From positions 1,502,994 to 1,566,993 of the forward strand of contig NZ_JACHFM010000001.1 in NCBI RefSeq assembly GCF_014201905.1: a stretch of DNA of 64,000 bases, written 5' to 3'. Shown piece after piece: positions 16,245-18,687 of the stretch; position 1 is the first letter of the stretch, and every line of letters begins with the position of its first letter. The notes under the pieces are model-generated. The model had not been told where the DNA came from and ran no database searches. It worked only from the letters and a program-made list of their open reading frames with translations. The stretch comes from Amaricoccus macauensis. GTDB taxonomy: Bacteria; Pseudomonadota; Alphaproteobacteria; Rhodobacterales; Rhodobacteraceae. The position numbers were made by a program, and so were the translations under genes.

Positions 16245-16248
<4 letters not shown>

Positions 16249-16808
16249 GGGCCGGTCAACTTGTAGAGGAAGATCATGGTATCCCCATACTGGCGCCGGT
16301 CGCGAAGGGTCAAGCCGGGCGGCGGCGGCGGCATGGCACCTTCCTCCCAGACAATCGTCGCGCCCGGCGCAATCCATCCGCCCGCGAGGGCCGCGTCGAT
16401 CGCCTGCTCCCCAAGACCGCGACCGTAAGGCGGATCGAGAAAGACGAGGCTCGCAGGCTCGCCGGGGTTCGCCCCGAGCCGTGTGGCATCGCGCGGCAGG
16501 ACACGGGCCAGGTCGCCGGCCCGCAGGCGCGCGAGGTTCGCCTCCAACAGCTTCAGCGCCGGCCGTCCCTGCTCGACGAACACCGCGAAGGCCGCGCCCC
16601 GCGACAGCGCCTCGAGCCCGAGCGCGCCAGTCCCGGCGAAGAGATCGAGCACGCGGGCGCCTTCAAGAGGCGCATGGTCCCCGTGGGCGAGCAGGTTGAA
16701 CAGGCTCTCGCGCACCCGGTCGGACGTGGGGCGGAGGCGGGCCGCCTCGTCGCCGGCGCCGACCGGGGCAAGCGCGGTGCCGCGCCAGCGGCCGGAGATG
16801 ATGCGCAT
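16245..16808 (-). CDS. rsmD: 16S rRNA (guanine-966-N2)-methyltransferase
   Basis: RsmD methylates G966 of 16S rRNA in the small ribosomal subunit. The 187-residue product begins MRIISGRWRGTALAP, the typical RsmD start. It shows the SAM-binding motif VLDLFAGTGALGLEALSRGA (residues 53-72) and the catalytic LDPPYG at 124-129. PTSDRVRESLFNLL near residue 28 is also characteristic. It is upstream of and overlapping recQ, so both are probably translated from one leftward transcript. Confidence 0.95.
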
Positions 16809-16932
16809 CGGGTGCTCCTTGTCCGATCGCCTGTAGCGTCAGGCCGGAGGCCGCGCAATCGACGGTCTGCTCGCCATCGAGAAGAACGCGTGATAGCCTT
16901 TGGGGAAGACGCGGAACCCGGCGGGCTGCAGC

Positions 16933-17814
16933 GTGCAGGACGTGTTCGTACAAATTGCCGCCTATCGCGACCCGCAAGTCTGGCCGACGATTGCGAGCCT
17001 CTTCGAGACTGCGCGCCATCCGGAGCGGCTTCGGGTGCGAGTGTGTTGGCAGCGAGCGCCAGATGATCCGCCGCCAGGGCTCGATCCACGTTGGAGCGTG
17101 GAAATCGACGAGGTGCCGCACACGCTCAGCGACGGTGCCAACTGGGCGAGGCGACGTGTGCAGCGTCAGTGGGCGGGAGAGCGATACTCCCTGATCATCG
17201 ACTCGCACTTGCGTTTCGCGCTCGACTGGGACTGCAAGCTCGCGGCCATGCTGGAGGGCTGCCGGTCCAGGGGCTCGGAGAGGCCATTGATCACCGGTTA
17301 TCCGCCCGACTTCGATCCTGCCACGTATCCGAGAGGCAGATCGTGGCGGCCGCTCAAGATCTATCGGGAAGGCTACATTGCCGGCATGCTCCTGCACTTC
17401 GCAGGACATGAGATCGCCCTGCCATCCTGGCTCGGCGCGCCGGTGCCGGCGGAGTTTCTCGCGCTGGGACTGCTGTTCAGCGACGGGCGGTTCAACATCG
17501 AGGTGCCGCTCGACCCTGCGATCTACTTCTTCGGGGACGAGATCACGACGGGCGTGCGGGCCTGGTGCCGCGGCTACGACTTCTTTCACCCGCATCGGGT
17601 TGTCGCCTGGCACGTCTACGCCCGCAAGACCAGACGATGCCACTGGGAGGACCACGCCGACTGGAGCGAGCGGGATCGTCGCTCTCTCGCGCAGACGCGA
17701 CGCGTTCTGACAGGAGCGGGAAGCGCGGGATGCGAGACTGGCCGGAAGCGGTCACTCCAGTCCTACGAGCGACGGATCGGCGTTCCGCTCGTTCTTCCGG
17801 GTGAGCACGCATGA
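16933..17814 (+). CDS. Skp1-GlcNAc-transferase-like glycosyltransferase (PF11397 type)
   Basis: The product of about 293 residues resembles the GT-A enzymes of the Glycosyltransferase (GlcNAc) family, founded by Dictyostelium Gnt1, which adds GlcNAc to hydroxyproline of Skp1. Visible landmarks are FVQIAAYRDP at the N-terminus, LIIDSHLRFALDWD with the metal-binding D-x-H near residue 90, YIAGMLLHFAG, FNIEVPLDPAIYFFGDEI and WCRGYDFFHPHR. There is no signal peptide or membrane segment, so it is probably cytoplasmic. The start is uncertain: TTG 16900, GTG 16933 and GTG 16942 are all in frame; GCGGG 7 bases ahead of 16933 decided it. Its stop overlaps the hydroxylase start (ATGA). That a PF11397-type enzyme is paired with a prolyl hydroxylase mirrors the eukaryotic Skp1 pathway. 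Confidence 0.78.
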   Translation: MQDVFVQIAAYRDPQVWPTIASLFETARHPERLRVRVCWQRAPDDPPPGLDPRWSVEIDEVPHTLSDGANWARRRVQRQWAGERYSLIIDSHLRFALDWDCKLAAMLEGCRSRGSERPLITGYPPDFDPATYPRGRSWRPLKIYREGYIAGMLLHFAGHEIALPSWLGAPVPAEFLALGLLFSDGRFNIEVPLDPAIYFFGDEITTGVRAWCRGYDFFHPHRVVAWHVYARKTRRCHWEDHADWSERDRRSLAQTRRVLTGAGSAGCETGRKRSLQSYERRIGVPLVLPGEHA

Positions 17815-18425
17815 ATGGACCCGTTGAGGTCATCGACGAGTTTCTGAGCAGTGACGAGTGCGCCCGCCTCGCGGCCGCTGCCCCGGCGAACTGCTGGCGG
17901 CCAAGCCTCTCGGGTCTGCCGGATGCGCGAAGCGTCCTCTCGGCACGCGGAGGTCGGCACAGCGACTCGGTCGGAGAGGGAGACCTCGATGCGGCAGGGC
18001 AGGAACTGCTGCCGGCCATCGAGGCGCGGTTGGCGGACCGGTGCCACGCACTGGTGGACCGCTTCGAGCCATGGCAAATGAGCCGGTACCGCCGAGGCGA
18101 CTTCTTCGACTACCATCTCGACTGCGGTGCCTTCGGGACACATGCGAGCGGAGAGCGCGAGCGAACCTTCCTTCTTGTCGTGCAGGCTCCCGCCCGTGGT
18201 GGAGCCACGCATTTCCGAGCGCTCGGGGTCAGCGTCCGGCCGATCGCCGGAAGGCTGATCGCGTGGCGCAATTTTCTGCCGTCGGGGCGGTGCAATCATG
18301 GTATGATCCACTCGGGTCGACCAGTCTGGCAGGGACAGAAGATCATCCTGACCACCTGGCAACACGAGCGCCCCTTTCCGAGGGGTGCAAGCGGAAGGGG
18401 CTCGGAGCATGAAGCATCCCAATGA
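17811..18425 (+). CDS. Prolyl-4-hydroxylase-like Fe(II)/2-oxoglutarate dioxygenase
   Basis: This is a 204-residue P4H-family dioxygenase. The Fe(II) ligands are H102-x-D104 (FDYHLDCG) and distal H167 (MIHSGRPV), and K177 (WQGQKIILTTW), ten residues after the histidine, would bind the 2-oxoglutarate carboxylate. RYRRGDFFDYH and the HSGRPV...GQK spacing are typical of prolyl hydroxylases rather than AlkB or PhyH. No signal peptide is present, so it is cytoplasmic like PHD2, Dictyostelium PhyA and the Pseudomonas PPHD. It overlaps the upstream glycosyltransferase by 4 bases and the downstream small gene by 17. A protein or peptide proline is the inferred substrate. Confidence 0.82.
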   Translation: MNGPVEVIDEFLSSDECARLAAAAPANCWRPSLSGLPDARSVLSARGGRHSDSVGEGDLDAAGQELLPAIEARLADRCHALVDRFEPWQMSRYRRGDFFDYHLDCGAFGTHASGERERTFLLVVQAPARGGATHFRALGVSVRPIAGRLIAWRNFLPSGRCNHGMIHSGRPVWQGQKIILTTWQHERPFPRGASGRGSEHEASQ

Positions 18426-18687
18426 TGGCATCGTCCGTGAGATCGTCGAGCGGTACGGCGACACGCTCGATCTGCGCTCGAGTCCGTACCTGATTGTCGA
18501 GATCATCCAGCAGTACGGGCCTCAGATCGCTGGAAATCCCGCGGCCGATTGCCTGCCCCCGGGAGGGCCGCCGCCACGCGGAGGACTCGATCCTGACGAT
18601 TTGATGCGCGACCTGCGTGCCGCGTTGGCAGAAGTCGAGCGATTGGCCACGGGGCTGCATCAGTCGCTGCCACGTTCGGCACCCTAG
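18409..18687 (+). CDS. Small protein with proline-rich linker, candidate modification substrate
   Basis: This 92-residue protein is of no family I recognise. Residues 1-45 look helical (GIVREIVERYGDTL, then SSPYLIVEIIQQYGPQI). Residues 48-59 are CLPPGGPPPRGG, with a lone Cys and five prolines. Residues 60-85 form a probable amphipathic helix (DPDDLMRDLRAALAEVERL). GAAGGGG, 8 bases before the ATG, is a good ribosome binding site, and the start lies inside the end of the hydroxylase gene, so translation is coupled. Its place behind a prolyl hydroxylase and a GlcNAc-transferase-like enzyme makes the PP-rich linker an obvious candidate target. That role is inference; it could instead be an adaptor or partner. 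Confidence 0.68.
   Translation: MKHPNDGIVREIVERYGDTLDLRSSPYLIVEIIQQYGPQIAGNPAADCLPPGGPPPRGGLDPDDLMRDLRAALAEVERLATGLHQSLPRSAP

Follow-up and report, generated by a model that had tools for sequence, protein, structure and literature searches.

A three-gene cassette in Amaricoccus macauensis as a candidate mobile system for proline hydroxylation and hydroxyproline glycosylation of its own small protein

Within a 64,000-nucleotide stretch of the Amaricoccus macauensis genome (hereafter, the window), we analyzed three overlapping genes encoding a GT60/PF11397 glycosyltransferase (GT), a P4H-type 2OG-Fe(II) oxygenase and a small proline-rich protein. Our best reading, to which we assign a probability of about 0.6, is that the trio forms a mobile, self-contained and horizontally transferred cassette, whose enzymes, judging from sequence comparison and structural models, would first hydroxylate prolines in the cassette's own small protein and next glycosylate the resulting hydroxyprolines.

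All three genes lie on the forward strand. The GT gene (16933-17814, 293 aa) begins with a GTG; a TTG at 16900 is a possible alternative start, and the homologue starts lie close to the GTG position. It overlaps the P4H gene (17811-18425, 204 aa) by 4 nt (ATGA), and the P4H gene overlaps the small-protein gene (18409-18687, 92 aa) by 17 nt, so the three overlapping same-strand genes described in an earlier sequence-only reading of this DNA are real, with their coordinates and overlaps confirmed in the window. The trio is flanked by rsmD on the reverse strand (16245-16808) and by a peroxiredoxin-like gene on the forward strand (from 18992), both named from a reading of their translations.

An HMM check placed the glycosyltransferase in PF11397, as the earlier reading had proposed, with a Pfam score of 184.8 bits against a cut-off of 21; Gnt1 of the protist Skp1 pathway belongs to the same family. 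The metal motif D90-S91-H92 was invariant in two alignments of 12 and 14 GT60s, and over 103 GT rows the D-x-H pattern was retained in 99 (DSH in 90, DAH in six, DGH in three), the remaining four not matching the pattern. Foldseek searches with the AF2 model of the GT (pLDDT 89.6) returned polypeptide GalNAc-transferases as the top matches and the nearest solved fold: GalNAc-T2 aligned with an E-value of 2.7e-11, a TM score of 0.63 by query, 14% identity and an rmsd of 7.1, and identity to the GalNAc-transferase rows in the Foldseek listing was 11-18%. These enzymes adopt a GT-A fold, act on proline-containing peptides and share the DXH metal motif with the trio GT. They also carry a lectin domain, which is absent from the 293-residue cassette enzyme; the latter differs from them further in its linkage to a P4H. 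The GT of the trio is the only PF11397 gene in its genome. Six genomes out of 385 in the window's class have the family, and 27 out of 369 in the phylum gave a GT60 match.

The assignment of the dioxygenase to the P4H type also held: PF13640 scored 37.3 bits against a cut-off of 27, and the catalytic residues H102, D104, H167 and K177 are all present and invariant across the eight of eight aligned trio hydroxylases. A sequence search of the PDB gave ten matches at E ≤ 1, nine of them P4Hs (for example P4HA2, and bacterial and algal P4Hs) and the tenth an aminotransferase. No chain was named as a HIF-/Skp1-type PHD, and on these matches and chain names, by which the P4H and PHD types were told apart, the Skp1-type hydroxylase envisaged earlier was not borne out. 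The trio enzyme shares its catalytic residues and sequence family with collagen-type and plant/algal P4Hs and with bacterial P4Hs in the PDB (3itq, 5hv0, 5iax). Known P4Hs target PPG or poly-Pro-like sequences; the trio P4H differs from them in sitting in an operon with a GT60 and a seemingly dedicated small protein.

The small protein matched no family in Pfam, PHROGs or NCBIfam (E ≤ 1) or in PADLOC (E ≤ 0.1), and by sequence it is a new family. Its AF2 model (mean pLDDT 70.7, pTM 0.37) contains helices at residues 6-16, 27-40 and 62-86. The first two make up an N-terminal two-helix motif, IVxxxYGxxLDLxxxPxLIVEII (18424..18528, forward strand), which is a conserved block of the family and possibly an enzyme-docking element. 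The Pro/Gly linker NPAADCLPPGGPPPRGGLDP (18535..18594, forward strand) is predicted to be disordered, with pLDDT under 50 at residues 43-56, and is proposed here as the putative site of hydroxylation and glycosylation. The third helix (18592..18666, forward strand) corresponds to an aligned C-terminal block in the family. Poly-Pro length varies between near-identical mycobacterial small proteins (9 vs. 6 Pro), and the cyanobacterial member has five prolines in total.

A GT60-alignment scan of a species-genome collection found 259 relatives; the best 80 of the 259 were kept as loci, in which the first detection used the window's own P4H and small-protein sequences. The trio was found side by side in 9 of the 80 loci, from Cyanobacteria, Actinomycetota and a proteobacterial MAG: cyanobacterium FACHB-502 (L057), the proteobacterial MAG (L058), an Actinomycetales MAG (L059), Mycolicibacterium stellerae (L060), Rhodococcus (L065), Arthrobacter (L069) and three mycobacterial loci (L071-L073) with the small-protein gene upstream of the GT. 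The window's P4H matched ten loci at E ≤ 8.4e-20, counting the larger piece of a fragmented gene in L054 (Rhizobium lusitanum), and the small protein matched nine at E 1.7e-10 to 7.6e-3, the three mycobacterial ones being weak alone. Since nine other loci carry the same trio, the grouping is more than chance. The sequence-only reading had named a lack of trio conservation in related genomes as one refuting outcome; this survey supports conservation for distant taxa, but not for the closest genomes sampled, where 0 of 10 from the same genus had a match to the P4H or the small protein.

Because these same loci supplied the seeds of the P4H and partner-protein profiles, later matches on those seeds are by construction. 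Over 1.06 Mb of searched flank, 16 loci gave a P4H-profile match, and in 15 of them it adjoined the GT, being less than 300 bp away or overlapping it as a stop-to-stop frame; in L080 the match lay 6.9 kb from the GT. Five loci (L118, L125, L130, L131 and L132) have a P4H beside the GT and no detected partner protein, and the other 60 of the 80 gave no P4H by the two profiles used, L061 among them ending at the GT. A 2OG oxygenase was present in all 13 partner-protein loci. Over eight loci, pairwise distances of the three trio proteins correlated with r of 0.84-0.88, and 0-1 of 2000 permutations gave values as high. In quick trees supported by SH-aLRT only, the ten trio GTs, four GTs of a second cassette form described below, L054 and L061 formed one 16-member clade among 103 GT sequences (SH-aLRT 100), and the ten trio P4Hs formed one clade among 29 sequences (SH-aLRT 100), the window's branch being long. 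A two-motif scan, with motifs written after the family was known, picked out ten of the 8027 frames between 60 and 300 aa long; all ten are partner proteins, and three members were missed.

Single-sequence searches found the small protein in its own genome only among 61 related genomes, and found no relative in plasmids (likewise with the relative from L069) or in viral and genome contigs. Matches at E ≤ 0.1 in 58 of 398 phylum genomes, including its own (best other E 0.0019), were scattered pieces and were taken as chance. With the profile, the window's genome alone matched among 240 genomes of the class; among 369 phylum genomes the window and G483 matched, the latter being rejected as a poly-Pro frame. 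A second match in the window's own genome was also rejected, as it runs antisense to a galU-like gene (named by eye). A viral scan with the profile returned nothing, and single-sequence viral scans with the window's P4H and GT found no relatives. Among 30 loci fetched from the phylum's GT60 genomes, the small protein was present in the window's only, and a P4H-profile match in the window's and L231 only. We examined 15 of 26 plasmid and phage homologue records (P4H plasmid 5 of 15, GT plasmid 8 of 8, phage 2 of 3; L014, L052 and L053 have no annotation over the stretch): none had a small-protein relative, and the ten GT plasmid/phage records had no P4H-profile match. The 80 viral GT60 loci likewise had no P4H-profile match at E ≤ 0.01.

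Several features of the loci bear on mobility. The cyanobacterial cassette is flanked by two IS240-type elements in inverted orientation that are 75% alike. In the Rhizobium lusitanum locus, where the GT frame is open and 64% identical, the P4H is broken into pieces, after which comes part of an IS240-type transposase gene (PF13610, IS6 family), and the small protein was not found in the locus. In the window, GC3 of the trio is 0.71-0.77 versus 0.85-0.89 for rsmD, recQ and the peroxiredoxin gene. Six of the ten same-genus rsmD stretches include the peroxiredoxin start and no trio genes, with an rsmD-peroxiredoxin gap of 143 bp in G009, 461 bp in G007 and about 1.3 kb in four others.

A second, repeat-type form was found in 4 of the 80 loci: L055 and L056 (Nitrospira), L068 (Paracoccus) and L064 (Nocardioides). 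It combines a GT60 with a larger protein carrying several PPDGGxPEPGVPPxGP-type repeats and an oxygenase in which PF13640 is fused with a JmjC/Cupin_8 domain; domains were assigned by Pfam in L055 and L064 and by profile in L056 and L068, and the L056 oxygenase gene runs off its contig. The GT and repeat-protein genes of L055 are separated by a flavin oxidoreductase gene. With a profile made only from three repeat-type partners, the window's small protein was matched at E 3e-4 to 2e-3; in the reverse direction, the small-protein profile gave E-values of 8e-4 and 1e-3 for the Nitrospira repeat proteins. This weak cross-detection suggests that the two partner forms may be related, and shared Pro/Gly composition could contribute to it. 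The three repeat-type loci that are not truncated each encode a large protein beside the cassette: a subtilase in L064 and L068, and a protease-like secreted protein (named by eye) in L055.

Fusions tie hydroxylation to GT60 independently of gene neighbourhood. In one genome of the window's class (L231:484-3108, reverse strand), PF13640, PF11397 and TTL domains share a single frame of 875 aa; because TTL-type ligases attach amino acids, this fusion protein may carry out a third modification. In another (L020), a GT60 is followed by a 2OG oxygenase domain scoring 24.6 bits against a Pfam cut-off of 27 (E 5e-5).

Taken as a mechanism, the preferred reading would run as follows. The small protein is probably the dedicated substrate of both enzymes, one of the two roles (substrate or adaptor) put forward for it from sequence and one which its disordered Pro/Gly-rich linker, the same gene company across phyla and the larger tandem-repeat counterpart all favour. 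Its N-terminal helical motif may present it to the enzymes. The P4H, by its class, would hydroxylate prolines of the exposed linker using O2, Fe(II) and 2-oxoglutarate; the GT60, going by its family and predicted fold, would add a sugar, most likely an N-acetylhexosamine, to the new hydroxyproline, with hydroxylation presumably preceding glycosylation. The second form would scale this scheme up, with a same-clade GT60, a P4H-JmjC fusion and a putative substrate bearing several repeats. Our best guess is that the modified small protein would serve as a stiffened and glycosylated spacer between two interaction modules. Counting against this reading are the Ser/Thr/Tyr residues in nine linkers (see below), the five-proline cyanobacterial member, the GT60-P4H loci lacking a partner, the Rhizobium lusitanum locus, and the restriction of the small protein to the window's locus among the 30 phylum loci.

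Linkage of the trio would be compatible, too, with an adaptor or inhibitor role of the small protein, and conservation cannot separate a substrate from an adaptor. We regard it as unlikely, if the least so of the alternatives, that the small protein serves the two enzymes as an adaptor or activator (an obligate subunit) and that what they modify is a host or surface protein whose gene lies elsewhere. The conserved N-terminal motif and C-terminal helix do resemble interaction modules, and some GT60-P4H pairs occur without the small protein. However, the presence of the cassette in several phyla makes a common host substrate unlikely, and the enlargement of the Pro-rich tract to tandem repeats in the second form is what would be expected of a modified substrate.

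Composition of the linkers bears on whether the two enzymes might instead act in parallel, the P4H on prolines and the GT60 on Ser/Thr of the same protein, as mucin-type GalNAc-transferases do. In each of the nine other trio linkers, 2-4 Ser/Thr/Tyr were counted in 30 residues, making Ser/Thr glycosylation possible there; PTS follows the Pro tract in 4 of 10 (L059, L060, L065 and L069), and PSS occurs in L058. A nearest fold among polypeptide GalNAc-transferases and the PT/PS-repeat proteins beside some GT60 loci point the same way. The window linker, by contrast, is free of Ser, Thr and Tyr over the 30 residues counted, and could therefore carry an O-linked sugar only on a residue that had been hydroxylated. 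The family alignment has a nearly conserved P-G-G and no conserved Ser/Thr column. On balance, parallel action seems to us rather improbable.

Of the known systems, the Skp1 pathway of Dictyostelium and Toxoplasma (PhyA, then Gnt1), with which the cassette shares a P4H-superfamily enzyme, is the one that the cassette would work most like (PMC7864055, PMC9485057); glycosylation there depends on hydroxyproline (PMC7864055). The cassette partner is a new small Pro-rich protein and not Skp1, and the cassette consists of mobile bacterial genes with no further glycosyltransferase in the three-gene unit. With a putative substrate that is not Skp1, and a hydroxylase whose PDB sequence matches are P4Hs with no PHD among the chain names, the cassette is not counted as a member of that pathway. 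A role as an O2 or 2-oxoglutarate sensing switch by analogy with the protist system is suggested by enzyme class, as P4H-type chemistry uses O2 and 2OG, and by the likeness to the two-step Skp1 modification (PMC7864055). We nevertheless consider it very unlikely: the small protein has no Skp1 relative in Pfam or the PDB (its four PDB matches at E ≤ 10 carry other names), the three-gene unit was not seen to include a sensor or regulator gene, the PDB sequence matches of the hydroxylase are P4Hs and not PHDs, and poly-Pro tracts suggest a structural, multi-site modification. Pseudomonas PPHD, a bacterial protein prolyl hydroxylase acting on EF-Tu, differs from the trio P4H in being PHD-type, in its EF-Tu substrate and in that the passages on it in PMC7864055 mention no glycosylation step. 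Least probable of all is a RiPP-like pathway in which the small protein would be processed to release a modified peptide for export: although a small precursor-like ORF with a conserved N-terminal block, a variable core and adjacent tailoring enzymes recalls one, no common transporter or protease was seen in seven trio-type loci (unannotated frames, by eye) and the family has a C-terminal helix block after the core.

Other GT60 neighbourhoods contain mucin-like tracts. At analyst-chosen thresholds, 8 of 80 cellular loci have a PT/PS-repeat frame within 1.5 kb of the GT60 (226 kb), compared with 6 such frames across the 783 kb lying farther out. The PTPTPS-type tract frames are in L070, L075, L083, L091, L092, L093, L102 and L125, of which one (L125) has a P4H, and the L075 tract protein carries a Por_Secre_tail (secretion-sorting tail). 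In the viral GT60 loci L134-L213 (IMG/VR), a P/S/T-rich repeat frame occurred within 1.5 kb in 37 of 80, with 45 frames in 233 kb near the GT60 versus 47 in 825 kb farther out, a comparison of near and far flanks of GT60 phages at looser thresholds. This pattern in sequence suggests that phages with a GT60 may glycosylate mucin-like virion proteins. On Burkholderia and Paraburkholderia plasmids (L046, L047), the GT60 gene lies within a type VI secretion island, with a 'fimbrial protein' gene on one side and an RHS gene on the other, and on an Azospirillum plasmid (L015) the GT60 adjoins a gene for DUF4255, a family known from contractile injection systems. GT60s fused to methyltransferase domains were found in L021 and L257 (Pfam) and in L232 and L236 (by eye), L232 coming after an HlyD-like gene (by eye).

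Overall, judged partly from models, GT60s appear to be O-glycosyltransferases acting on Pro-rich tracts of polypeptides, and their cassette clade would have gained a P4H and a Pro/Gly-rich partner; we suggest this role for the PF11397 enzymes of bacteria and phages, which have been little described. Hydroxyproline glycosylation is known in plants, algae and some protists, and we found no bacterial GT60-P4H system in the open-access literature searched by title and abstract. A further-reaching but improbable reading is that bacteria hold mobile hydroxyproline-O-glycosylation cassettes with their own substrates, in which O2/2OG-gated modification of the two-module small protein acts as a switch, and which are a counterpart, perhaps a source, of the protist Skp1 pathway. 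If the main reading is true, a 1.8-kb bacterial cassette with a dedicated substrate would be a minimal, genetically tractable system for hydroxyproline glycosylation. It might then be used to produce Hyp-O-glycosylated proteins in E. coli, and would make it possible to ask whether the protist pathway has roots in bacteria.
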